A DNA stretch of 29,058 nucleotides from an uncultured Novosphingobium sp. (GTDB taxonomy: Bacteria > Pseudomonadota > Alphaproteobacteria > Sphingomonadales > Sphingomonadaceae), in NCBI GenBank assembly GCA_946886365.1, contig CAMPIM010000036.1, forward strand, positions 1 through 29,058. The letters are read 5' to 3'. Numbering within the stretch: the first letter of the stretch is position 1; each line of letters starts with the position of its first letter. Below are positions 8,432 to 27,108 of the stretch, piece after piece. Below the pieces are notes generated by a model. It saw only the letters and a list, made by a program, of their open reading frames with translations, was not told the origin of the DNA and ran no database searches. A program made the position numbers and the translations under genes.

Positions 8432-8998
8432 ATGCGGCTAGTTCACTCTATCGGCATTTCCCTGATGCTCGCGCTTTCGGCCTGTACCGGCTCTGTGTCC
8501 GGTCTGCCTGCTGTTTCCACTGCCAACGCCGATCAATATCGGCTTGGTCCGGGTGATGAACTTCGCATCATCGTTCCCGGCTTTACCGAAATCGATAATG
8601 GCACGGCCTTCGTCGTCAATGATCGCGGCGAACTGACGTTGCCGCTGATGGGCGGGATTCCGGTCAGGGGATCGACCATCCCCGAACTGGAACAGCGCAT
8701 CGCCGCCCTGCTGGTGGAAAAACGGCTGATGGTCTCGCCCGCCGTCAGTGTTCAGCCGGTGAAGCTGCGGCCCATCTACATCCTTGGTGAAGTGCGTAGC
8801 CCCGGCGAATATCCCTATCGGCCCGGTATGACGGTCGTCACCGCAGTATCGGTGGCAGGCGGGTACACATTTCGCGCCAATCGCAACACGGTTGCCATCA
8901 TCCGTCAGGTGAATGGCCAAGCGTCCACCGCCAAGGCTTCCGAAAATACGCCGATCCAGCCGGGTGACACCATCAAAGTCGTGGAGAAATGGTTTTGA
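8432..8998 (+). CDS. Wza/GumB-like polysaccharide export lipoprotein
   Basis: Periplasmic/outer-membrane lipoprotein expected to form or help form the export channel for the polysaccharide. The N-terminus has a short signal peptide and lipobox (LALSAC, Cys18). A Poly_export domain (about 35-111, beginning YRLGPGDELRI) is followed by one SLBB domain (about 114-165, IYILGEVRSPGEYPYRPG). At 188 aa it is the short GumB-type form, without the C-terminal barrel helix region of long Wza proteins. The ATG at 8432 is preceded by GGAGGT, and starting there gives a clean signal peptide; a GTG at 8408 would add eight residues. Its stop overlaps the start of the beta-barrel gene, and the two may act together in outer-membrane passage. 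Confidence 0.93.
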   Translation: MRLVHSIGISLMLALSACTGSVSGLPAVSTANADQYRLGPGDELRIIVPGFTEIDNGTAFVVNDRGELTLPLMGGIPVRGSTIPELEQRIAALLVEKRLMVSPAVSVQPVKLRPIYILGEVRSPGEYPYRPGMTVVTAVSVAGGYTFRANRNTVAIIRQVNGQASTAKASENTPIQPGDTIKVVEKWF

Positions 8999-10221
8999 CA
9001 GCAAAGCGCCTCATCCCCTTCTGCTCATGCGTCATTTTGACGGGCATGGCCCTTCCCGCTGCCGCACAGCAGCTGGATCGAGCCACGCCGCTGCTGGAAA
9101 CACCGGAGGAATATGAGGCGAGAGCGGTGCAGTTGGGCAGAATATCGGCCTATCTCGGTGCCGATGCCCGGCTTGAATATGATTCCAACATCTACGCCCT
9201 GTCCTCGAATGAAGTCGACGATGAGCGCCTGACCATCTCGCCGTGGCTCAACCTGCGGCTGAGCGATAACAAGTTCGAACTGGCGGCGCAGGCGCGGGGG
9301 GTAATCCGGCGCTATTTCAAGAATGACAGTGAAAATTCCGAAGGCATAAATACCAGCATCGGCGGCGTATATCACCTGTCTGGCGCCGATAATATTACCG
9401 CTAGCGCGGGCTGGATGCGGCTGGTCGAGGACCGCGGCGAACCTGAATCCCGCACGGGCGTCGGCACGCCGCCGCGCAGATATGACCAGTGGCAAAGTGA
9501 CCTTGGCTATACGCATCAGGGCGCCCGCTTCAATCTCGGCGTGAAGGGCACCTGGCTCAAGAACAACGCCTTAGCCGCCGTCGATGCCGAACGCGACTTC
9601 GACCAATATTCCGGCTCCGCCCGGCTGGGATACCGGGTCGGCGGCATGATGAATGTGTTCGGCGAGGGTTTTATCACCCGGCGCGAGTTCCGGTTGCCGG
9701 TGGACGCGTCGGGTGTAGACCGCGATTCCAAAACCTATGGCGCACGGGCAGGGGTCGCTTTTGAACCCGGCGGCCTGATCCGTGGCGAAGCGTCCGTCGG
9801 CGTGTTCCGCTTCAACCCCGACGACGCGCTATTTGACAGCAGGACCGGCCTGTCGGTTTCGGCCGGGCTGACCTACACGCCTTCGCCCAGATGGGCGGTC
9901 ACGCTCGATGGCTTCCGGGGCGATGTCGCCACTGTCCGCACTGGCGCGCAGTCGCGGACCGACACGAGATTCCGGCTGGGTGTGCAGAATGAGATTTATC
10001 ACAATCTGCGCTGGCAGGCTTCCGTGCTGTACCGCCGCAGCAGTTTCATTGGGTCGGGCCAGCACGAACGGACGATCGCCGGTGTGGCCGAAGTCGAATA
10101 TCTGGTGAACCGCAATATTTCCTTCGCGCTCACCGGCCGCATCGCCAATCGCGACAGCACAAGAGCGTTCGACGATTTCGACCGCTCGATCGTCGGCGCG
10201 GAAATCCGCCTGCAATATTGA
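8989..10221 (+). CDS. Outer-membrane beta-barrel protein of the exopolysaccharide locus
   Basis: A signal peptide (about 1-26, ending LPAAA before QQ) is followed by about 380 residues of alternating hydrophobic/polar strands rich in Tyr, Arg, Asp and Gly. The last residues, GAEIRLQY, end in an aromatic, as expected of a barrel handled by the BAM complex. It resembles the putative porin-type barrels (BBP2-like) that sit beside export genes in sphingomonad and rhizobial polysaccharide loci. Because the Wza-like partner is short and lacks its own outer-membrane segment, this barrel may supply the outer-membrane pore (inference). The ATG overlaps the preceding gene by 10 nt. A TTG at 8995 overlapping the stop as TTGA would sit better behind the GGAG at 8983, so the start may be two codons later. 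Confidence 0.85.
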   Translation: MVLTAKRLIPFCSCVILTGMALPAAAQQLDRATPLLETPEEYEARAVQLGRISAYLGADARLEYDSNIYALSSNEVDDERLTISPWLNLRLSDNKFELAAQARGVIRRYFKNDSENSEGINTSIGGVYHLSGADNITASAGWMRLVEDRGEPESRTGVGTPPRRYDQWQSDLGYTHQGARFNLGVKGTWLKNNALAAVDAERDFDQYSGSARLGYRVGGMMNVFGEGFITRREFRLPVDASGVDRDSKTYGARAGVAFEPGGLIRGEASVGVFRFNPDDALFDSRTGLSVSAGLTYTPSPRWAVTLDGFRGDVATVRTGAQSRTDTRFRLGVQNEIYHNLRWQASVLYRRSSFIGSGQHERTIAGVAEVEYLVNRNISFALTGRIANRDSTRAFDDFDRSIVGAEIRLQY

Positions 10222-10233
10222 TTGGATAGAGGA

Positions 10234-11643
10234 TCAGCGTATCTGCCGCCCGGCCATGACTTCGCGATGGGCAAAATCCAGGAATTCGTCCAGATTCAGC
10301 CAATTGTCATGGTCGGCATCCTGCCAGGCATCATTGCGCCGGGCGTTAATGCCATTGGCCCGCTCCCAGCTGTCGGCCATCCCGTCCTCATCCAGATCGA
10401 CATAGGGCGTTCCGGACGCAATCCGGGGTAGCGGGCGTGGTCCGTTTCGCATTCTTGCGTTACGCAGGATATTCCCTGTCCGGTTGCGAACATCGCTGAC
10501 GGTACGTAGGTCGAGCGCATCTCGCGGAAATGCTCCAGCGCCGTCCAGTACCTGGATATAGGCCTTTTCGGGTGAGGCGACCTTCATGCTAAGGGGGCAG
10601 ACGGGCCGCCCCACACGCGCAGCGGCTGCGGCGCGGGTCGTCATGACCTTGACCTGATCCAGCCTGTTGGCGGCCATGAATATTTCCGATTGGCCCGTGC
10701 TGGCGCCCACATCACGATCTATTGCAGCAATCTTGTCCGTGCCGTCCGGACCATTTTTGTAATAGTTGCCGACGATGTTGACGGGCGTTCCGCCATAGAT
10801 TTCCTGCACGCGGGTGAATTGGGACCTGGCATTATAAAAAATATTGTTGACGATCTCCACGCATGACTTGGGCGTGAAATTCACGTCTGGACTTCTGCTT
10901 CCATTATGAGCGCACAGGTTGCGGATGAAGCTGACCTTCTGCGGCTCCCGCGGGTCGAAAGCGAGCATCGCGCATTTGCTCCGCCGGGAAATGCCCTCTG
11001 TAAAGATGGAGTTGGACATTGTGATATTGTCGTTCACGCCAAAGCCGCCGATGATCTGACCTAATGCCCAGGCGCCACTGACATGATCGAAAATAACGTT
11101 GTGGCTGTTCTCAAAAAGGAATGATCCGTTGCTGGCGGCAGCATTGCCGTTGCGATCAGTGCGTACGCGGATATGGCGAATGATCACGTCATGCGTATTT
11201 TTGGCAACGATAGGGGTGTTGCCGCTTTCGCCTCCCGCATGGGTGATCAATATTCCGCCCCCAGGCGCGGTCTGACCGGCGACGGTGATATAGGGGTGGC
11301 GTATCACGGGCCGATCCGTCGTGAAACGGATCACGCCAGCGACGCGGAAGATGCACACGCGAGGCTTTTTGGCCTCTATGCATGCGCGCAGGGAACCGGG
11401 GCCGTGGTCCGCCAGCGTGGTGACCGGCATGATCACGCCGCCACGTCCGCCACGGGTCCGTCGGCCAAAGCCTTCGGCTCCGGGGAACGCTTCGGCGCCG
11501 GGTACTTCGGGCAATACTGAAGTTCCGTCGGAATTGCCGGTGCCCGTCAATTGCCGCACGATATCGGAAGGCGTGACAAACGGAGCCACCAGTAGCGCGG
11601 CGATCCCGACACCCAGGGCGGCCACCGCATTCGAACTCACCAT
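10234..11643 (-). CDS. Pectate lyase-like parallel beta-helix protein (polysaccharide lyase)
   Basis: Exported protein predicted to cut an acidic polysaccharide, probably the product of this locus. A hydrophobic N-terminal segment (about residues 8-23) is a signal or membrane anchor. The PL1-like entry motif GAEGFGRRTRGGRGG (55-69) is followed by right-handed beta-helix repeats (VIIRHIRVR, NVIFDHVSGAW, NITMSNSIF). The C-terminus has acidic DxDxDG-type loops (DLDEDGMADSW, DADHDNW) that look like calcium sites of dockerin/EF-hand kind. Length is 469 aa. The start overlaps the preceding glycosyltransferase stop by 7 nt; a GTG one codon later gives a 4-nt GTGA overlap and a better 5-nt spacing to GGAGG. 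Catalytic residues could not be assigned by eye. Lyases in such loci often trim or release the polymer. Confidence 0.85.
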   Translation of the reverse strand: MVSSNAVAALGVGIAALLVAPFVTPSDIVRQLTGTGNSDGTSVLPEVPGAEAFPGAEGFGRRTRGGRGGVIMPVTTLADHGPGSLRACIEAKKPRVCIFRVAGVIRFTTDRPVIRHPYITVAGQTAPGGGILITHAGGESGNTPIVAKNTHDVIIRHIRVRTDRNGNAAASNGSFLFENSHNVIFDHVSGAWALGQIIGGFGVNDNITMSNSIFTEGISRRSKCAMLAFDPREPQKVSFIRNLCAHNGSRSPDVNFTPKSCVEIVNNIFYNARSQFTRVQEIYGGTPVNIVGNYYKNGPDGTDKIAAIDRDVGASTGQSEIFMAANRLDQVKVMTTRAAAAARVGRPVCPLSMKVASPEKAYIQVLDGAGAFPRDALDLRTVSDVRNRTGNILRNARMRNGPRPLPRIASGTPYVDLDEDGMADSWERANGINARRNDAWQDADHDNWLNLDEFLDFAHREVMAGRQIR

Positions 11644-12899
11644 CGCCTCCGGTTCCGGCGCGGCCCCGTCCCGAGGAGCGACTGATAGATTGCGGACACT
11701 TGCGACGCATGCTGCTCCACGCCGTAACGGCGGTTCGCCAGGATCTGCGCCTGCGCGGCGATCGCCGTCAGGCGATCGGGACAATCGAGCAGCTCGACGA
11801 TGGCCCGCCCCATGGTGGCGGGATCATCGGGTTCGACCAGCATGCCCGTCACGCCATGGTCGATCGCTTCGATATTACCGCCCGATGCGGCAGCAATTAC
11901 GGGCGTGCCGAGCAGCATGGCTTCGATCAGGGACCGGCCAAAGGGCTCGTTGACGGCCGTCACCACATGAATGTCGCAGCCCGCCATCAACGCGGCGGAG
12001 GGATAGCGAAAGCCCATGAGGCGCAGGCGATCGCTTACGCCCAGCGCTTTGGCTTTTTCGTTGATCTGCTCCTCTATCCCATCCGTCAGCGGCAATCCGA
12101 ACATCAACCCCATCACCGGAAGATCGGGCCGCTTCCGGACAATATGTGCCAGCGTTTCCACGAACATCAGCGGCCTTTTGCGGTCGATGAAATGGCCGAA
12201 AAAACCAAGAAGGCGGGTGGCAGGATCTACCCCCAGCTCCGATGTCAGCGCCAGATGCGCCTGCGCCCGATCAATCGGCGCCGCGTCGGCATCGAAGGGG
12301 CTGTAGATGACGGAAGTCTTGCGCGCCGCGCGCTTTCGACGGCGCACCTCGGACAAGGCATAGGCGGATACGCCGACGATGCGATCCGCCGCGAAGGGGG
12401 CGACGAAGCGGACGCCTCGGGCATCATGACTGCCCCTATGGTGCCACAGCATCTTGGCCCCTGCCAGACGCGCGGGCAGTGCCCAGGACATATGCATCGG
12501 CCCATCATTGGTATGGACGATCCGGACGTCGTTCAGCCTCAGAAAATGGGTCATGCGCCACTGATCGATCAAGGCGCTCACCGTCTCCGCCTTGCCTCCC
12601 GCCTTAGGAACGCCAGGCGACTCGCCGAAGAATCGGGTATCGGGCAGAGTGACGAACTCCAGCCCCTCGGATCGCAGGAAATCGCCGAACTGACCCGATC
12701 CATAATGCAGGACGATGAGGGGCGAGAAGCGGCTCCGATCCAGCTGATGGATGAGCTTGGTCGCGGAGATATGGCTCCCCCCCATCGCGCCCCCGGCAAA
12801 GGGGAAGCAGATGCGCGCCGGGGCAGCGCTTCCGGCTTCGTGGTCCAGCGTCGCGGCGGATCCGGACAGAGAGGGGGAGGCGGGCAAGACCTGCAACAT
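11637..12899 (-). CDS. GT4-family glycosyltransferase
   Basis: Cytoplasmic or membrane-associated GT-B enzyme that would add one sugar to the lipid-linked repeat unit. The N-terminal Gly-rich loop (AGGAMGGSHIS) binds the acceptor side. The C-terminal domain has FFGHFIDRKRP and the EX7E motif EPFGRSLIEAM followed by LLGTPVIAAASGGNIEAI. Length is 420 aa. ATG 12899 is chosen because AGGTGA lies about 7 nt upstream; the GTG at 12905 would overlap the previous stop as GTGA and is possible. It is third in a leftward run of four genes (methyltransferase, GT, GT, lyase) with tiny gaps or overlaps. Donor and acceptor sugars cannot be predicted. Confidence 0.9.
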   Translation of the reverse strand: MLQVLPASPSLSGSAATLDHEAGSAAPARICFPFAGGAMGGSHISATKLIHQLDRSRFSPLIVLHYGSGQFGDFLRSEGLEFVTLPDTRFFGESPGVPKAGGKAETVSALIDQWRMTHFLRLNDVRIVHTNDGPMHMSWALPARLAGAKMLWHHRGSHDARGVRFVAPFAADRIVGVSAYALSEVRRRKRAARKTSVIYSPFDADAAPIDRAQAHLALTSELGVDPATRLLGFFGHFIDRKRPLMFVETLAHIVRKRPDLPVMGLMFGLPLTDGIEEQINEKAKALGVSDRLRLMGFRYPSAALMAGCDIHVVTAVNEPFGRSLIEAMLLGTPVIAAASGGNIEAIDHGVTGMLVEPDDPATMGRAIVELLDCPDRLTAIAAQAQILANRRYGVEQHASQVSAIYQSLLGTGPRRNRRRW

Positions 12900-14112: not shown

Positions 14113-14991
14113 TCACATCGCGGTCAGCAACTTTTCTATTTCCGATCCGGCACCGATCCGTTCCACAACCTCCAAGGCACCACTGTCGCTCATGGCGAAC
14201 AGCGTCCCATGATGGTCCCCGGACACCCGCGTGCGCACGATGAACAGCAGCGATCCTGGACCTTTGAGATAGGAACGCAGATTATCCACCGCCTTTCGAA
14301 GGTCGGCTTCGGCGAAGTAATTTGCGTTGAGGATGTTGGCGGCGCGCACCAGATCGAAACGGCGGCCGAAACCGTCACGCGGGGTCAGCACATCATCCTC
14401 GACAATCGTGATGAGCCCATGGTTGCGGACGCGCGGGCTGACAAGTTCGACCTTCCTGACGCCCGCACCCTGGCGCAGCCTGCGTGCCGCCAGACCGCCG
14501 ACGATGCGGGACAGGATCGGCCGCACCAGCCACATGCCGGTCAGATAATCCAGACGGCGCCGCCATGGCTGTATCGACCGGCCGAACAGGTCGACCTGCA
14601 ACAGCTGACCTTCCGGGTTGAGCAGCGCCGCGCACCTTTTGCCCAGCGGGACGATCCAGGCATGGATGGCGTAATCGGTGCCGATGATGCGCGGCCGGTA
14701 TCCTTCACGGGCAAAGGCGTCGCACAAATCCAGCGTGGTCGTCCCCGACGATACCCCCACGTCCAGTACTTCCCGTACGTCCAGCCCGCGTGCCTTGACC
14801 GCGCCCACCAGACGGCCGTCCAGCGCGCCGAAACGGCCGCCCCACGTGCATTTGAACGTGTTGTTCGGGTTCTTGATGGAACTGAAGAAGGCGTCTTCCA
14901 CCTGCTGGGGAAGGGCTTCAGCCGGGTGCGAGAAAAATTCTGTTGCTGCTACTATCATAGCCGTTGAGCCTACAATGTGTGGCGGCGTCAT
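14113..14991 (-). CDS. Class I SAM-dependent methyltransferase-like protein
   Basis: A Rossmann-type SAM domain is indicated by VLDVGVSSGTTT (75-86, motif I), IIGTDYAIH (102-110, motif II) and FDLVRAANILNANYF further on. The general layout recalls CheR-like or sugar methyltransferases of polysaccharide loci, but the acceptor is unknown. At 292 aa it has an N-terminal extension of about 65 residues before motif I, including a Trp-Gly-Gly-Arg segment that may be lid or acceptor-binding. It is first in the leftward unit with two glycosyltransferases and the lyase, so O-methylation of a sugar in the repeat unit is the simplest role (inference). The start is uncertain: ATG 14991 and ATG 14958 both lack a good Shine-Dalgarno. 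Confidence 0.75.
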   Translation of the reverse strand: MTPPHIVGSTAMIVAATEFFSHPAEALPQQVEDAFFSSIKNPNNTFKCTWGGRFGALDGRLVGAVKARGLDVREVLDVGVSSGTTTLDLCDAFAREGYRPRIIGTDYAIHAWIVPLGKRCAALLNPEGQLLQVDLFGRSIQPWRRRLDYLTGMWLVRPILSRIVGGLAARRLRQGAGVRKVELVSPRVRNHGLITIVEDDVLTPRDGFGRRFDLVRAANILNANYFAEADLRKAVDNLRSYLKGPGSLLFIVRTRVSGDHHGTLFAMSDSGALEVVERIGAGSEIEKLLTAM

Positions 14992-16598: not shown

Positions 16599-17792
16599 AT
16601 GGCGAAGTTTTACGGGACTGTCGGAGACGACATCATCAAGGGAACATCCTTGATCGACACTATATTCGGGGGCGCAGGCAATGATCAGCTGTGGGGCGGA
16701 TTAGGCGACGATTATATTGAGGGGAATGATGGCAACGACGTGCTTCATGGGGAAGCGGGCGCCGACTTCCTCAAGGGCGGTTTGGGCGATGACCAGCTTT
16801 GGGGAGAGGACGGCAATGACTCGCTCGATGGCGGGGCGGGGCACGACCGTATTTATGGCGGCCTGGGCAACAACATCGTCGTCGGCGGGGACGGCAACGA
16901 TCGCATCGAAACGCTCGACGGGCACGACCAGATATTGGGGGATGCCGGGAATGACACCATCCTCGCAGGCGGGGGCCGCGACTATATCGACGGAGGCGCG
17001 GGAGATGACATCATCTACGCTGGCGCTGGCGATGACGGGTTCCTGAACGAAATCAATCCGGCGACCGGCCTGCTGACGACACAGGCGGTGGCCGGCGGCG
17101 CTGGCAATGATTGGATTTATGGCGAAGACGGTAACGACAAGCTGAAGGGGCAGTCGGGCGACGACCATGTCTACGGCGGCAACGGCAATGACAGGGTCGA
17201 TGGCGGCGACGGCAACAACTATCTGTCGGGTGGCAGCGGCGACGATATTCTGGATTCCGAAGGCGGCGTGGATCAGCTCTATGGTGGTGACGGCCGGGAC
17301 AATATGGAATCGGGCGCGGGCAACGATTTCCTCGACGGCGGCAAGGACGCGGATTCCCTGAATGGGGAGGCGGGGAACGACATTCTCTTCGGCGGCGATG
17401 GCGACGACCTGCTCTTGGGTGGCGCCGGTGCCGACGAGCTGCACGGCGATGCGGGGAACGACAAGCTGACCGGCGATCTGGGCGCGGACAGGCTATGGGG
17501 TGGCGCGGGCGCCGACTGGTTCGTGTTCAAAGGCGCGGGCGCGCTGGATGGTGGCGACCGGATAGAGGATTTTCAGGACGGCGCCGACCGCATCGTGCTG
17601 GAAAAGCTGGGAGTCACCAAATATGCTGCGGGTGGAGCGCCGGGTACGGTGTTCGCGCATGACGGAGCCTCGGGTAACGTCTTGCTGGATGTCGTCACCT
17701 CTTCCGGGGCGAAGTTCAGCATCGACATTGCCGATCCCTTGGGGACGTTGACCGCCCATAATTTCACGGCTGCGGATTTCATCTTCGCCTGA
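16599..17792 (+). CDS. RTX calcium-binding repeat protein (type I secreted)
   Basis: Predicted extracellular protein made almost wholly of hemolysin-type GGxGxDxLx nonapeptide repeats, about 30 of them, which would wind into a calcium-binding beta-roll. A short non-repeat insert (NEINPATGLLTTQAV) near residues 150-164 splits the repeats into two blocks. The last about 80 residues (FKGAGALDGGDRIEDFQDG onward, ending DFIFA) resemble the serralysin-type C-terminal secretion region, so export by a type I secretion system is expected; no such transporter is in the window. There is no N-terminal signal peptide and no enzymatic domain. The ATG is preceded by GGGAG at 7 nt. Its place between a glycosyltransferase and the flippase suggests a calcium-dependent matrix or capsule-organising role (inference). 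The coding repeats also appear as DNA tandem repeats. Confidence 0.92.
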   Translation: MAKFYGTVGDDIIKGTSLIDTIFGGAGNDQLWGGLGDDYIEGNDGNDVLHGEAGADFLKGGLGDDQLWGEDGNDSLDGGAGHDRIYGGLGNNIVVGGDGNDRIETLDGHDQILGDAGNDTILAGGGRDYIDGGAGDDIIYAGAGDDGFLNEINPATGLLTTQAVAGGAGNDWIYGEDGNDKLKGQSGDDHVYGGNGNDRVDGGDGNNYLSGGSGDDILDSEGGVDQLYGGDGRDNMESGAGNDFLDGGKDADSLNGEAGNDILFGGDGDDLLLGGAGADELHGDAGNDKLTGDLGADRLWGGAGADWFVFKGAGALDGGDRIEDFQDGADRIVLEKLGVTKYAAGGAPGTVFAHDGASGNVLLDVVTSSGAKFSIDIADPLGTLTAHNFTAADFIFA

Positions 17793-19356: not shown

Positions 19357-20040
19357 TCAGAACTCTTCCAGCGTCTCGATGATCCGGTCGGCCTTTACGC
19401 CCTCATGTATGCCGAACTTGTGGATACGGTCGGGCCGGGCAATCTGCACCATCCGCCACCCGCGTGATCGGGGGGCGGTGAAATCCTTCGACGGGTTGTC
19501 CGCGACATAGGTCAGCGATCCGCCCGACCGACCGAAAATCTGCTCGACATGCTCGAACGCGCGCGGGTTTGGCTTCCAGCACTCCCGCCCCCATGTGTCG
19601 GTGCAGATACCAAGGTGGATGCCGCGCCCATACAGGCCCAGCGCCCTGATCTTGCGCCTCTGCGCATCAAGAAAGCCGTCGGTGATCACCGCAAAGCCCG
19701 TCTTGCCATCACGCCCCGCAAGGAACCGCTCCGCATCGGGCGCAAGGCAGATGTCGGGACGATGCTGCCGGTACGTAGCCAGCATCCGCGCGATCAGAAG
19801 GGGCGACGGCGCGAGGCCCATCTCCTGCAAGCTGTCGTCGAATATCTGGCTGCGAGACCCGGCGTCGAACCGCGCGCGCATCACCTCGCCGAGACCATCT
19901 ATGCCCAGCGCGTTGCTCGCCCATCGCCCCACGGCCCTCAGCCCGCTCAGCACATAGTCGCGCTCCAGATAGAGCGTGTCGTCCAGATCGAACACGATGA
20001 CGCGCTCGAACCGAGTGCTTTCAGACGAAAACGGCATCAT
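19357..20040 (-). CDS. HAD-superfamily hydrolase
   Basis: Cytoplasmic phosphatase-type enzyme with the four HAD motifs: DLDDTLY (nucleophile D18, acid/base D20), VITDG (T120), KPNPRAF (K156) and YVADNPSKD (D181, D186). A helical C1-type cap lies between motifs I and II (about 25-100). Length is 227 aa. Two adjacent ATGs occur at the start (20040 and 20037), both inside the 3' end of the ATP-grasp gene, which overlaps by 20 nt, so translation is coupled. It is the last gene of the six-gene leftward operon. Its substrate is unknown: removal of a phosphate from a sugar or acyl intermediate of the modification pathway is a reasonable guess. The NPSKD version of motif IV is common in the REG-2-like/YjjG-type branch. 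Confidence 0.9.
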   Translation of the reverse strand: MMPFSSESTRFERVIVFDLDDTLYLERDYVLSGLRAVGRWASNALGIDGLGEVMRARFDAGSRSQIFDDSLQEMGLAPSPLLIARMLATYRQHRPDICLAPDAERFLAGRDGKTGFAVITDGFLDAQRRKIRALGLYGRGIHLGICTDTWGRECWKPNPRAFEHVEQIFGRSGGSLTYVADNPSKDFTAPRSRGWRMVQIARPDRIHKFGIHEGVKADRIIETLEEF

Positions 20041-21061
20041 CGAAACGCAGCATCAAGACGCCTTCCTGCCAGCCATCATGCGCCGTGCGCGGCAGTCCCA
20101 GCCGTTCCTCCAGCATCCACTGCGCAAACCGCGCGCCCGCCCGGTGCGCCAGCGGATAGCCTCCACCGAAACGGGCGTTGATCTCGAAAATGGAGGCGTT
20201 CCCGTCCGCATCCACCCGCAGCTGAAAGCACATCGCCCCGCGCGCACCCTGAAGGGCGGAACCCAACCGCCAGGCCAGGTCCTGCATGACGGCATCCCTT
20301 ACTGTGACGCCCTTCTCGACCTCCCCCGACCGCACCCGCAGCCGCTCATGCGGAACCGCGCATTGCAGCTGTCCTTCGCCATCGAAATAGAGGCTGATCG
20401 TAAATTCCCGCCCCGCCAGAAACTGCTGGAGAATATAGGGTTCACTCTTGTCGAGCGCCGCCACCTCCTCGCGATCATAGACCATGCCGATGCCCCGGCT
20501 GGAGCTGCCATGTCGCGGCTTGGCCAGCAGTGGCAGTGGCAGATCGGCCGATCCCTCCAGATAGTCCTCCACCGATATGGTGGCGGGGGAGGGGAGACCC
20601 GCACCCGTCAGGAACCGCGCCGTGGCCAGCTTGTCCCGCGCCATCTCCACCAGCGGCGCGTCCGACACCGCGACATGGCAGTTGATCGCGGCGAACTGCT
20701 CGCGCGCATTGGCATAGGCGATAAGCTCGGTATCGATCGTCGGCACGATCAGTTCGATCCGCTCGCGCCTGCAAATATCGAGCATCGCCGGAATGAACCC
20801 ATCGCTCTCCGCAGGCGGCGCGGCGAAGCTGCCGTCCGCTTCGATACAGGCCGGGCTCCAGTCCGGCTTCAGGTCGCACGCGAACATGGCAAGGTCGATG
20901 CCCAGCGCCCCCGCCGCTTCGCGAAAGCTCCGCATCAGGCCAACCCGCCGCCCGGCTGAACTCAACATCATGCGCAGCGACCGGCCGCTGCGGTCGGGTC
21001 CTTCCCAATCCGTGCCCAAGGTTGCCGATGCTCCTCCAGTCCGAGTCGCGGATGCGTCCAT
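20021..21061 (-). CDS. ATP-grasp domain ligase (CarB-like)
   Basis: Likely forms an amide or peptide-like bond by activating a carboxylate as acyl phosphate. An N-terminal Rossmann-like preATP domain (MMLSSAGRRVGLMRSF, 31-46) is followed by the ATP-grasp domain. K144 and K181 (AKPRHGSSSRG) are candidates for ATP-contacting lysines, and the Mg-binding FEINARFGGG (E293, N295) is intact. The C-terminal segment is typical of CarB-like carboxylate-amine ligases. Length is 346 aa. The start at 21061 is supported by GAGAGGT about 8 nt upstream; relatives commonly begin near M31, but that ATG has no ribosome binding site. The gene starts 1 nt after the deacetylase stop and overlaps the HAD gene. Next to a deacetylase that frees an amine, ligation of an amino acid or other acid onto an amino sugar is an attractive but untested role. 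Confidence 0.88.
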   Translation of the reverse strand: MDASATRTGGASATLGTDWEGPDRSGRSLRMMLSSAGRRVGLMRSFREAAGALGIDLAMFACDLKPDWSPACIEADGSFAAPPAESDGFIPAMLDICRRERIELIVPTIDTELIAYANAREQFAAINCHVAVSDAPLVEMARDKLATARFLTGAGLPSPATISVEDYLEGSADLPLPLLAKPRHGSSSRGIGMVYDREEVAALDKSEPYILQQFLAGREFTISLYFDGEGQLQCAVPHERLRVRSGEVEKGVTVRDAVMQDLAWRLGSALQGARGAMCFQLRVDADGNASIFEINARFGGGYPLAHRAGARFAQWMLEERLGLPRTAHDGWQEGVLMLRFDDAVFV

Positions 21062-21062
21062 G

Positions 21063-21746
21063 TCAGGCTACCTCTCTTATCAGGACAAAGGCTTCCGCCG
21101 CGCGCCGGCTGACGCAACTGCCCCGCACCTGCGCCAGCGCGCGCAGGGTTTCGAAGGATCGTTCATTGGGAAAAGGACGAACCTGCGACTCAAAACAGCC
21201 AAAGGCCTCGATCTTCCGATCCAGATGCTCGCTGATGTCGATGAAGACGTGCGGCTGGAACGGAGGCGTCAGATAAGGCGCCGCCCAGTTAGTTTCCGAC
21301 ACCGTCTCATAGGCCAATATGCGCCTTGGATAATGGGCGCCAACCGGCCGCGCCGCCACCATCGCGGCTTCGAATATCAGGCCGTGGTCGAAATGCAGAT
21401 CGCCAGGAAAGGGTAGGAACAATGTGTCGGCACGGCTCTCCGCCACCACAGCGGCGATGCCCTCATTCAACTCCGCGCGCGGCACGCAATCCAGCGCCGC
21501 CGCCTCGAATTCCAGGAAATGCGTCCGCGCGACGCCCAGCAACTCATGAGCCTGGCGCGCTTCGGCCTGCACCCGCTCCACCTGCGACGTATCAAATCGC
21601 GGCGGCTTGCCCTGCGTCGCAATGACGACCTCGACATGGCGGCCCATCGCGGTGAGGCGCGTGATCGTTCCCCCGCAGCCCAGCACTTCATCGTCGGGAT
21701 GGGGCGCGATCACCAGCGCGCGCTCTATGCTATCGATCATGGTCAT
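21063..21746 (-). CDS. PIG-L/LmbE-family N-deacetylase
   Basis: Zinc-dependent deacetylase expected to remove an N-acetyl group from an amino sugar, on a nucleotide, lipid or glycoside carrier. The metal site is intact: APHPDDE (H16, D18, D19) near the N-terminus and HFDH (H118-H121) in the LPFPGDLHFDH segment. Length is 227 aa, normal for the family. The ATG at 21746 forms a 4-nt ATGA overlap with the stop of the formyltransferase-like gene. A longer open frame extending to 22082 runs antisense-like through that gene and is rejected. It is followed 1 nt later by the ATP-grasp gene. The order deacetylase-ligase suggests acyl-group exchange on a sugar amine (inference). Confidence 0.92.
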   Translation of the reverse strand: MTMIDSIERALVIAPHPDDEVLGCGGTITRLTAMGRHVEVVIATQGKPPRFDTSQVERVQAEARQAHELLGVARTHFLEFEAAALDCVPRAELNEGIAAVVAESRADTLFLPFPGDLHFDHGLIFEAAMVAARPVGAHYPRRILAYETVSETNWAAPYLTPPFQPHVFIDISEHLDRKIEAFGCFESQVRPFPNERSFETLRALAQVRGSCVSRRAAEAFVLIREVA

Positions 21747-22666
21747 GCCGCTGCCTTGGCCCGTCCCAATATGGCGTGGTTGGGCAGGGGCGCCTCCCGC
21801 GCCGTCTGCCACCGCAACACATGCAAACCCTGATCGTCGCCACAGCGCACGACGAAGCCTTCCGCCATACGCTCGACAATCTGCCCCGGCATGGCGGCGG
21901 CATGATGGCGCAGGGGCACCAAGGCCGCCTCTTCGATGACGATCTTCTCGCCCGCATAGCTCGTCCAGGCGCCGGGATAAGGATGACCGCAGGCCCTGAC
22001 ACAGCGCCAGATCGCCGATCCCGGCGCCGACCAGTCGATCAGCGCATCTTCCGGCCGCCTGCGCGCGGCATAGGTGGCGCACCGCTCATCCTGTACCGTG
22101 AGCGTCGGCGATCCGACCGCAATATCCTCCAGCACGTCCGGCAGCATCGCTTCCAGCGCTTCCATATGTTTGGCGTAGAGCGTCGCTGCCGTCTCATCCG
22201 GCGCCAGATGGAAATAACGCTGGCCAAGCAGCGGCCCGCTATCCACCCCCGCATCGATTAGGAAGAGAGAGGAAGCGGAAATGGGCTCATCCAGCAAGAT
22301 GGTCCATGGAATGACAGCGCGGCCCCGCAGGCGTGGCAGTGGCGCGGGATGATAGCCCACGACTCCCCGCCTTGCGGTAGCGCGGAACGCCTCCCCGCAA
22401 ATCTGCGACCAGCCGATGACGAAGATATAATCGGGCGCCACATCGCGGATCGCCTGCAACGCGGCATCGGAATTGATATTGGCGGTTCGCACCATCCGCG
22501 CCCCCGCTTTTTCGGCCTCGCCCGAAAGATCGACGAAATCGGAATGGCGATGGGCAAGGTCCGGCGGCAAGGTGAATACCGCCGCCAGATCCCATTGGCG
22601 GGATTCGCCAAGGGCCGTCACCGCGACCCGCGTGCTTTCAACCGCGCCAACGACTATTGCCTTCAT
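21743..22666 (-). CDS. Formyltransferase-fold protein (methionyl-tRNA/sugar formyltransferase-like)
   Basis: Its N-terminal domain has the formyl_trans_N fold (MKAIVVGAVESTRVAVTAL), and the active-site loop reads GYHPAPLPRLRGRAVIPWTILL with H106, followed by IDAGVDSGPLL with D142. Both match the catalytic His and Asp of tetrahydrofolate-dependent formyltransferases, but the catalytic Asn two residues before His is Gly104 here. A C-terminal domain (about 205-307) resembles the FMT C-terminal domain (WRCVRACGHPYPGAWTSY). At 307 aa it is not the housekeeping tRNA enzyme by context: it lies between sugar transferase and deacetylase genes. N-formylation of a 4-amino sugar is the likely role, if active. 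AAGGAGG lies 4 nt upstream of the ATG, and the gene overlaps the PglC-like gene by 29 nt. Confidence 0.87.
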   Translation of the reverse strand: MKAIVVGAVESTRVAVTALGESRQWDLAAVFTLPPDLAHRHSDFVDLSGEAEKAGARMVRTANINSDAALQAIRDVAPDYIFVIGWSQICGEAFRATARRGVVGYHPAPLPRLRGRAVIPWTILLDEPISASSLFLIDAGVDSGPLLGQRYFHLAPDETAATLYAKHMEALEAMLPDVLEDIAVGSPTLTVQDERCATYAARRRPEDALIDWSAPGSAIWRCVRACGHPYPGAWTSYAGEKIVIEEAALVPLRHHAAAMPGQIVERMAEGFVVRCGDDQGLHVLRWQTAREAPLPNHAILGRAKAAA

Positions 22667-24666: not shown

Positions 24667-25530
24667 ATGATTGATCGCCAGCCAAGCTTCGTCGTTATCG
24701 GCGCCATGAAGGGTGCGACAACCTGGATCGCTCATCAACTCCGCAATCATCCCGGCCTGTGGCTCCCTGACGCCGAACCGCATTATTTCAGTTCGGAATA
24801 TGATCGCGGCCCAGACTGGTATGCCTCCCTCTTCGATCCTGCACCGCCCGGCCGCATCATTGGGGAAAAGTCGGCGGACTATCTAGCGCATCCGCAAGCC
24901 CCGGAGCGCATGGCGGCCATGCTGCCCGACGCCCGGCTCATCGTTCAGCTGCGCGACCCGGTTCAGCGCGCCTATTCCGATTATTGCATGCTCTTCCGAC
25001 GCGGACAGGTCAGCAGCGACCCGCGCAAATATCTGGAAAGCGCGCAGCCTGAACAGTCGCGTTTCCTGTCGGGCGGACTTTACGGCGCCCATCTGCGCCG
25101 TTTCCTCCGCCATTATCCGCGCAATCAGATCCACGTGATCCTGTACGAATCGCTTCGGGAGCAGCCCGAACAGGTCATCGCGGACGTTTGCACCCATATC
25201 GGCGTGCCGGTGCATATCGCGCCGGAAGAGGTGGCCAGCCGGAAAAATGACAGCGCCAGCCCGATGTTGCCGTTGCCGCTGCGCCGTATGCTGCAACCGA
25301 TGCGCCCGGTGCTCGACCCGCTCCGCTCCAACCCCCATCTGGCGAAACTGCGCGCATCCCTGGCGGCGCCGATCCGCTACCCGCCCCTCACGGATGAATT
25401 GCAGCAGATGCTGCGCGATTTTTACTGCGAGGATCTGTTGATCCTGCAAGACATCCTCCAGATAGATTTGCGCCACTGGATCACCGGCGATCCTGCCACG
25501 AGGGACGTTCAAGCCGTGGCGGCGAAGTGA
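24667..25530 (+). CDS. Sulfotransferase domain protein
   Basis: Cytoplasmic enzyme predicted to transfer sulfate from PAPS, probably to a sugar hydroxyl. The 5'-phosphosulfate loop reads GAMKGATTW (K15), a conservative version of the usual PK[SG]GTTW. The 3'-phosphate site reads QLRDPVQRAYSDY (R96, S104). GEKSADYL (66-73) and the later HVILYESLREQP segment also match the heparan/bacterial sulfotransferase family. Length is 287 aa, typical. The ATG start has only a weak GAAG upstream. No PAPS-synthesis genes are in the window. It diverges from the amino-sugar operon. Placement at the edge of the locus suggests a sulfated exopolysaccharide; a lipid or other acceptor cannot be excluded. Confidence 0.9.
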   Translation: MIDRQPSFVVIGAMKGATTWIAHQLRNHPGLWLPDAEPHYFSSEYDRGPDWYASLFDPAPPGRIIGEKSADYLAHPQAPERMAAMLPDARLIVQLRDPVQRAYSDYCMLFRRGQVSSDPRKYLESAQPEQSRFLSGGLYGAHLRRFLRHYPRNQIHVILYESLREQPEQVIADVCTHIGVPVHIAPEEVASRKNDSASPMLPLPLRRMLQPMRPVLDPLRSNPHLAKLRASLAAPIRYPPLTDELQQMLRDFYCEDLLILQDILQIDLRHWITGDPATRDVQAVAAK

Positions 25531-25692
25531 GGCGCGCCGTCATTCTCCAGTAACGGCGGCGACTTATCTGACGCCGTATGGAGCATCGGCCCGACCCGCG
25601 GGCGGGCAACTGCGGAGGTACTCCGGAAAAGTCGGCCACGGACAATCATGCATGACGTAAATTGCCGGCCATAAGGGAAGTGAGGTGCGCTG

Positions 25693-27108
25693 ATGCCCGG
25701 TTTCAGGGTGGTTCGACCTTGGCTGTTGAACCTCTATGTCCACCGATTGCCTCGCTTTCGCGGGAAATGGCGGCTGTTGTCGCCTTTCGCCAGGTTGCTG
25801 GATGGCACGCCGATTCGGTCGAGCTATGGCCGTGTCCGACTGGCGTTCGATGTCCGCGACCGGACTCATCTGCTCGGGCTGACCGGGGAATATGGCGCGC
25901 GAGTCTCCGATGAGGTGGAATGCCTCCGTCCCGGTGACTGCTTCATCGATGTCGGCGCCAATTGCGGCATCTTCACCCTGCTTGCAGCGGAGCGGGTGGG
26001 GCCGGACGGGCTGGTGGTCGCCTTCGAACCTTGCTTTTCCACCTTCGCAAAGCTGGTCCGGAACATCAGCCTGAACGCGTTTGGCAATGTCCTGCCCTTC
26101 AATATGGCCCTTGCGGCCCTGACCCGCCCCGACCTGCTCGACAATCGCGCGACAGGGCATTCCGGGCGCTTCTCCATCGCCAGCGAGCCTGTGGAGGAGG
26201 GGGAACGGGTCATGACATTGTCGATCGGCGACTTTCCCGGCCTCCTCAAGCTGATCGGCGACCGATCCATCACGGTGAAGATCGATGTGGAGGGATTTGA
26301 ATATGCCGTCCTTCAGGGGCTGGCGCCGATCCTTGCCCTCCCGCAAACGCGTGCAGCGGTCGTCGAAATCGATAACCAGAACCTTCACCGCTATGGTGCT
26401 GATGCAGGCGAAGTCTTCACCCTGCTAGAGCGCCATGGCTTCACCCGCGTCGATCGTGACGGCGCAGGCGATCATTTCGACGCGGTTTTCCACCGCCGGA
26501 CTGACACCGCAGTAACCGTCGCGGCTTGTGCTAACGTCACGCCATTTCGTCGGCCGCCTTCTCATGCCGCCTCCGTCTCGCTCTCGCTTGCCCGATCAAC
26601 ATCCCGCCTCGCGCGCGTCGTTGCGGCCTTGTTGGTGTTGGCGGGCGGCTGGTTCGCCATGGGCAAGGGCGTGTCGGTCGATCGCGGCCGGGCGGAGGAA
26701 TATTTCATCAAGGAAGCCTTGCAGTCGCACAAAGTCGCGGAAATGCGGGCCGTCCTGCGCCGTTCCCCGCCCACGGTGTTCAACGTCGGCGAAGTCGGCT
26801 CCTTCGCCCGCATCGCGCTTCCCGTCCTGCCGCAGGGTTGGCGTATCACCGATGTACAGCTTTTCCCTTCCGACAGCGGTCCCAGCCTGCAGATGACCAT
26901 CACCAACGACGTCAGCCGTCCGGTATCCCTGTTCGCCGTCCGCGACGATGGCGTGGCGCCCGCCAAACCGGCCGTGCTCACCCGCGATGGCAAGACTGTC
27001 GCCTATTGGCAGGAGGGCGAACTGGCCTACGCCCTGATCAGCAAGAAGAAGCAGCCAGCCGAACTCGATCGCCTTGCCGAGGATATCGCCGACAATGTCT
27101 CGTCCTAA
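25693..27108 (+). CDS. FkbM methyltransferase fused to RsiW-like anti-sigma transmembrane/periplasmic domain
   Basis: Residues about 1-268 are a complete FkbM-type SAM methyltransferase: FIDVGANCGIFTLLA (84-98), VVAFEPCFSTFAKL (108-121) and VKIDVEGFEYAVLQG (195-209), with the usual C-terminal end FDAVFH. After a Ser/Arg-rich linker, a single membrane helix follows (about 309-324, VVAALLVLAGGWFAMG). The last about 145 residues resemble the periplasmic half of COG5662 anti-sigma factors, ending in YWQEGELAYALI and PAELDRLAEDI. The N-terminal zinc anti-sigma domain that normally precedes such a helix is missing. GAGGT lies 6 nt before the ATG. The frame is open throughout, with no frameshift sign. 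The enzyme domain should face the cytoplasm, anchored to the membrane. Whether this is a real architecture or a recent gene fusion is unknown. Confidence 0.8.
   Translation: MPGFRVVRPWLLNLYVHRLPRFRGKWRLLSPFARLLDGTPIRSSYGRVRLAFDVRDRTHLLGLTGEYGARVSDEVECLRPGDCFIDVGANCGIFTLLAAERVGPDGLVVAFEPCFSTFAKLVRNISLNAFGNVLPFNMALAALTRPDLLDNRATGHSGRFSIASEPVEEGERVMTLSIGDFPGLLKLIGDRSITVKIDVEGFEYAVLQGLAPILALPQTRAAVVEIDNQNLHRYGADAGEVFTLLERHGFTRVDRDGAGDHFDAVFHRRTDTAVTVAACANVTPFRRPPSHAASVSLSLARSTSRLARVVAALLVLAGGWFAMGKGVSVDRGRAEEYFIKEALQSHKVAEMRAVLRRSPPTVFNVGEVGSFARIALPVLPQGWRITDVQLFPSDSGPSLQMTITNDVSRPVSLFAVRDDGVAPAKPAVLTRDGKTVAYWQEGELAYALISKKKQPAELDRLAEDIADNVSS

Follow-up and report, generated by a model that had tools for sequence, protein, structure and literature searches.

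The window, a 29,058-nucleotide stretch of DNA from an uncultured Novosphingobium sp. (contig CAMPIM010000036.1) that was analyzed at its full length, contains a gene (positions 25693 to 27108, + strand) in which an FkbM methyltransferase is joined to what resembles the outer half of an anti-sigma factor. This locus raises the question of whether such a fusion is a genuine protein or an accident of deletion or assembly and, if it is genuine, what the outer half of a regulator might do for an enzyme.

Parts of the fusion protein and origin of its tail

The gene is a single uninterrupted frame that runs from ATG to TAA and encodes 471 amino acids. Its N-terminal part (25693 to 26496, +; residues 1 to 268) matches the FkbM models TIGR01444 (67.6 bits against a cut-off of 37.7, residues 84 to 225) and PF05050 (43.1 bits against a cut-off of 22.7, residues 86 to 250). 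The sequence DVGANCG (25948 to 25968, +; residues 86 to 92), which we take to be the motif that binds S-adenosylmethionine, is present in 19 of 20 rows of an alignment, the remaining row (P0003) beginning downstream of it, and KIDVEGFE (26278 to 26301, +; residues 196 to 203), whose DVEG is presumably the FkbM family motif, is invariant in all 20. Judged by its profile scores and both motifs, the N-terminal part is an FkbM methyltransferase that has the catalytic domain and conserved motifs of that family. (Note that a frame on the opposite strand, 25564 to 26388, overlies the gene; such frames are usual in GC-rich DNA and it was not counted as a gene.)

The enzyme is followed by a variable linker (26497 to 26601, +; residues 269 to 303) with low identity among relatives, and then by a predicted membrane helix at about residues 304 to 323 (26602 to 26661, +). 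This helix was placed by hydropathy, which peaks at residues 306 to 324 with a 19-residue mean of 1.84, and by AlphaFold2 helices; a full-length model, which was poor overall (predicted local distance difference test, pLDDT, 60) and was left out of the fold search, has a helix at residues 302 to 322. Beyond it lie a long, putatively periplasmic helix (26683 to 26757, +; residues 331 to 355, helix 28 to 52 of the AlphaFold2 model of the tail) and a six-stranded domain with an end helix (26782 to 27105, +; residues 364 to 471). An earlier note, made from the letters alone, had described just this succession in one frame of FkbM domain to about residue 268, linker, membrane helix and C-terminal region, and the two profiles and the hydropathy bear it out.

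The same note had taken the C-terminal region for the membrane and periplasmic half of an anti-sigma factor. Profiles alone give no sign of this, as the C-terminal part by itself has zero matches in Pfam or NCBIfam, which for these two libraries is, taken literally, the outcome that the note had named as refuting it; it is sequence searches that reach anti-sigma proteins encoded beside ECF (extracytoplasmic function) sigma genes. In particular, a search with the tail only found matches in 29 of 61 genomes, many of them in proteins of about 240–290 amino acids with an anti-sigma N-terminus, the best of which has an E-value of 5.0e-29 at 43% identity. One of these anti-sigma proteins (L016) matches PF13490 (zf-HC2) over the cut-off at 26.9 bits, and L012, L016 and L020 match an NCBIfam anti-sigma model weakly, at 22–29 bits and below its cut-off of 100. 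The deciding evidence is the genomic company that the tail keeps: an ECF sigma gene stands beside 45 of 45 canonical anti-sigma loci and beside none of 30 fusion loci (9 with FkbM and, as described below, 20 with Methyltransf_24 and 1 with a Glyphos-like enzyme), where for short fusion loci about 0.2–0.8 kb upstream of the gene was covered. Similarly, no ECF sigma gene was found in 24 stretches of 5.5–29 kb around fusions (the window included, two pairs overlapping). Of note, the nearest genome compared, G001, also has an ordinary anti-sigma factor of the family with an adjoining sigma gene (L059). Thus, as far as comparison of sequences can tell, the tail is a homologue of the membrane and periplasmic half of ECF anti-sigma factors, a conclusion with which the tree of tails described below agrees, and we take its source family to be COG5662/RsiW-like, a name that a database source gives for P0021. 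Relative to these factors (COG5662/RsiW-like; NF052375, zf-HC2 relatives), the fusion is homologous in membrane helix, periplasmic helix and C-terminal domain, whereas the FkbM domain stands in place of the anti-sigma N-terminal domain and no ECF sigma gene adjoins. (A tail-bearing frame in G216, L051, has an N-terminus that matches no enzyme or anti-sigma query, and its short stretch holds no sigma gene.)

We entertained the idea that the protein is an anti-sigma factor or has kept that activity, its FkbM part then serving to hold a sigma factor. One source labels the orthologue P0009 a "putative transmembrane transcriptional regulator (Anti-sigma factor)". However, neither Pfam nor NCBIfam matched a zf-HC2-like cytoplasmic anti-sigma domain anywhere in the 471 residues, no sigma gene adjoins, and the FkbM motifs are retained; a plain anti-sigma factor was rejected on these grounds, the proposal that the enzyme has replaced the anti-sigma N-terminus stands, and retained anti-sigma activity appears very improbable. 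A second database source names P0021 an anti-sigma factor, and the two labels serve as a warning about how such fusion proteins are annotated. Also rejected was a split gene that left behind an orphaned anti-sigma N-terminus with its sigma gene, as the earlier note had suggested looking for: no sigma gene was found in the stretches around ten FkbM loci, the rest of those genomes not having been searched for orphan ones.

Conservation, selection and predicted fold

The fusion was found end to end (residues 1 to 471 or 8 to 471) in 8 of 94 genomes of the nearest genus compared, at 61–96% identity and in all 8 as a single frame with no internal stop. (Note that counts from the family, class and genus genome searches are lower bounds, as 12, 12 and up to 38 first-look candidates, respectively, were scored per genome.) Moreover, a search of 5.8 billion proteins with the tail region gave 19 matches, 18 of which carry FkbM, the other being a 270-amino-acid anti-sigma-like protein. 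The two-domain architecture that the earlier note proposed to look for in other sphingomonads is thus present in relatives. Members of the FkbM family that lack the tail are more remote; the nearest, among the matches listed from 298 family genomes, are three frames of 272–280 amino acids, in 3 genomes, that are only 37–39% identical (8 candidates were scored in this search and the count is a lower bound). Among plasmids, 193 records match through FkbM-type matches of less than 60% identity, and none spans 80% of the query.

To compare selection along the protein, we calculated dN/dS by the Nei-Gojobori method for six pairs; dS is high in the distant pairs and the values are accordingly rough. 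The ratio is 0.08–0.16 for the FkbM part and 0.06–0.21 for the periplasmic part, close to that of the enzyme, whereas it reaches 0.40–1.36 in the linker (the four of six pairs for which it was computable) and ranges from 0.11 to 1.19 in the membrane helix. Identity to five more distant relatives is likewise 0.06–0.29 in the linker and 0.35–0.75 in the helix. Rough as the values are, linker and domains differ clearly, and on this comparison of sequences purifying selection acts strongly on the enzyme and on the periplasmic part while the linker drifts. Since the low dN/dS of the periplasmic domain matches that of the enzyme while linker and helix vary, this outer domain appears to be selected for itself and to be more than an anchor.

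These findings bear on whether a deletion or an assembly error joined two genes by chance, as the earlier note had allowed. The architecture is unusual, and in a more distant relative (G311; L122, about 8745 to 9941 on the − strand, and upstream) there is an in-frame TAG within the FkbM part, which may reflect a decaying gene, a sequence error or something else. The note had named a stop or frameshift near the join, in reads or close relatives, as refuting its reading; the frame is intact in every genome of the genus in which it was found, and the join is no frameshift artefact. Set against a chance joining are those eight intact genomes, 18 fused protein clusters and low dN/dS on both sides of the join; we rejected it, and assign it next to no probability.

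The tail was modeled by AlphaFold2 with a mean pLDDT of 86, and the top matches of the model in Foldseek and VIA were to the C-terminal domain of RseB/MucB (PDB 2p4b, 2v43 and 6in9). The predicted periplasmic fold is therefore most like that domain, although PF17188, the sequence model of the RseB/MucB C-terminal domain, misses the fusion tail: it exceeded its cut-off in none of six genomes and was not matched in the Pfam scan of the window proteins. A tail profile run against PDB sequences gave a single match, to an unrelated viral protein (E 0.91). The likeness also stops short of the whole protein, for RseB/MucB are free in the periplasm whereas the fusion domain would sit inside a membrane protein, and the fusion is without their LolA-like N-terminal domain. 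RseB/MucB are reported to take part in anti-sigma control (PMC7400510, PMC8103513). With its conserved periplasmic helix and its RseB-like domain, the single chain of the fusion may contain a built-in pair of the RseA/RseB type.

The same tail on unrelated enzymes

FkbM is one of four enzymes that bear the tail in related bacteria; the other three are Methyltransf_24, a transferase with a weak likeness to Glyphos_transf and an amidotransferase that resembles asparagine synthase. These N-terminal enzymes are unrelated to FkbM whereas the C-terminal tail is shared with it, and none of the 21 such loci examined (20 with Methyltransf_24 and 1 Glyphos-like) has a sigma gene. Fusions with Methyltransf_24 (PF13578) include L017, L022, L025, L047, L055 and L062, with further members assigned by similarity. 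Methyltransf_24 matches were found in at least 104 of 397 family genomes (4 candidates scored, counts being lower bounds); in 19 of the 104 the enzyme is fused to the tail (20 places), and in one further genome, G377, its two ends lie on separate contigs. In the other 84 genomes the match stops before the tail, and eight that were inspected are frames of 245–289 amino acids without it; Methyltransf_24 therefore occurs both with and without the tail. The Glyphos-like proteins number eight (P0020–P0022, P0026, P0028 and P0030–P0032) and were grouped by similarity to P0020; matches to Glyphos_transf were 16.6 bits for L053 and 19.1 bits for P0026, both under the Pfam cut-off of 22.1, and P0032 had none. 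The amidotransferases are P0023, P0025, P0027 and P0029, of which P0023 matches TIGR01536 above cut-off and reaches 583 bits with TIGR03108 (XrtA/PEP-CTERM amidotransferase), short of the 817 that this model requires. (In 32 proteins from three database searches the tail scores at least 171 bits, as expected given that the tail was the query.)

We built a tree of 94 tails, from which identical tails had been collapsed and then 6 near-duplicates of 100 dropped (P0001, P0003, P0005, P0006, P0007 and P0013); P0025–P0032 are absent from it. The FkbM tails form one group (support 100/99), and the Methyltransf_24, Glyphos-like and amidotransferase tails form a separate group (96/90), each among anti-sigma tails. 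The six labels require five changes, the minimum, and the AU test does not reject a single clade uniting every enzyme tail (p 0.164). Even a single departure of the tail from the anti-sigma family would call for no fewer than four joinings or swaps, as no two of the four N-terminal enzymes are from one family.

To our knowledge, variation among anti-sigma factors lies mostly outside, the anti-sigma domain staying constant while the sensor changes. The fusions reverse this pattern, as the outer half is kept and the inner output exchanged for four unrelated enzymes, and the tail resembles a building block for repeated use, one that may position or regulate enzymes from beyond the membrane. We tentatively consider it possible that sphingomonads have made the tail a portable sensing cassette on biosynthetic enzymes, through which envelope state would act directly on enzymes of surface-glycan and related synthesis, replacing or paralleling transcription by sigma factors. 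Should sensing persist in the tail, there would be a direct route from envelope to enzyme; a ligand or partner of one type should then act both in the sigma pathway and on the enzymes, which the shared tail makes testable. In the literature searched, from which the majority of subscription papers and every bioRxiv preprint were absent, we came across no account of an anti-sigma tail that carries FkbM or another methyltransferase; the sole paper found that combines FkbM and anti-sigma concerns FlgM (PMC5109656).

(Note that what appears to be one stand-alone Methyltransf_24 gene, together with a shared set of neighbors, occurs in two different genera, at L114 in G357 and L116 in G174, which suggests transfer. 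Methyltransf_24 context was tried as a clue to substrate and discarded: 12 loci and L072 matched none of the exopolysaccharide genes of the window, neighbors having been inspected for 10 of these 13.)

Possible roles of the tail and surroundings of the gene

The constraint on the periplasmic domain is on a par with that on the enzyme. Read most economically, this domain would bind something in the periplasm and thereby place or switch the enzyme. The protein would accordingly be a membrane-tethered methyltransferase with a periplasmic domain that senses an envelope component or docks on one, a proposal in which we place about even confidence. The catalytic domain would be cytoplasmic, as the likely topology implies, with the flexible linker and one helix leading across the inner membrane, and the periplasmic helix and RseB-like domain, drawn from an ECF anti-sigma factor, would bind an envelope component or a protein partner. 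Such contact might keep the enzyme at the glycan assembly machinery or switch it together with that machinery; a surface-glycan intermediate could then be methylated in step with envelope state, without transcription. Topology, docking or sensing, glycan substrate and control of activity are all points that we infer for the fusion.

A binding site for a fixed partner would be selected as strongly as a sensor, and the tail is common to several unrelated enzymes; both observations suit a scaffold, in which the tail would secure the enzyme to a partner in the periplasm or membrane (for example, a polysaccharide assembly complex) and no signal would pass. Anti-sigma factors, however, transmit envelope signals, and since the source family does so we regard a mere scaffold as somewhat unlikely. 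Another possibility is that the methyltransferase is freed when its tail is cleaved by site-1 and site-2 proteases, as happens with anti-sigma factors. The tail and helix do stem from a family whose relatives undergo regulated intramembrane proteolysis, by which RseA is reported to be controlled (PMC8103513), but the membrane helix is poorly conserved, at the identities given above, and we consider release of this kind improbable. Both it and retained anti-sigma activity are less likely than docking or sensing by the periplasmic domain.

The surroundings of the gene are consistent with a glycan substrate. The window holds an exopolysaccharide cluster that encodes a ParA/GNVR-type kinase-like protein, Wzy_C, Poly_export, Polysacc_synt_3, a sugar transferase and glycosyltransferases, together with PIG-L, formyltransferase, ATP-grasp, HAD and a sulfotransferase. 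The sulfotransferase gene (24667 to 25530, +; PF13469/PF00685) lies upstream of the fusion gene on the same strand, and that of the sugar transferase (Bac_transf, PF02397; 22638 to 23240, −) belongs to the exopolysaccharide cluster, which adjoins the fusion gene. Of ten loci, six have a sulfotransferase gene next to the fusion (the window, G001, G004, G011, G023 and G366) and four do not (G332, G378, G379 and G311), and exopolysaccharide genes likewise border 6 of 10 FkbM fusion loci. With such neighbors in six of the ten, a role in surface glycans that is not bound to one cluster is likely, going by gene content.

Within the cluster, frames at 10234 to 11784 (−, 516 amino acids) and 14113 to 14991 (−, 292 amino acids) have no Pfam match, and an RTX-repeat protein is encoded at 16599 to 17792 (+), with 242 bits to PF00353 in 11 stretches. 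The genes for HAD, ATP-grasp, PIG-L deacetylase and formyltransferase (19357 to 22666, −) resemble a sugar modification cassette, and the same block is present in G001, G004, G011 and G366 and, as far as that locus extends, in L003.
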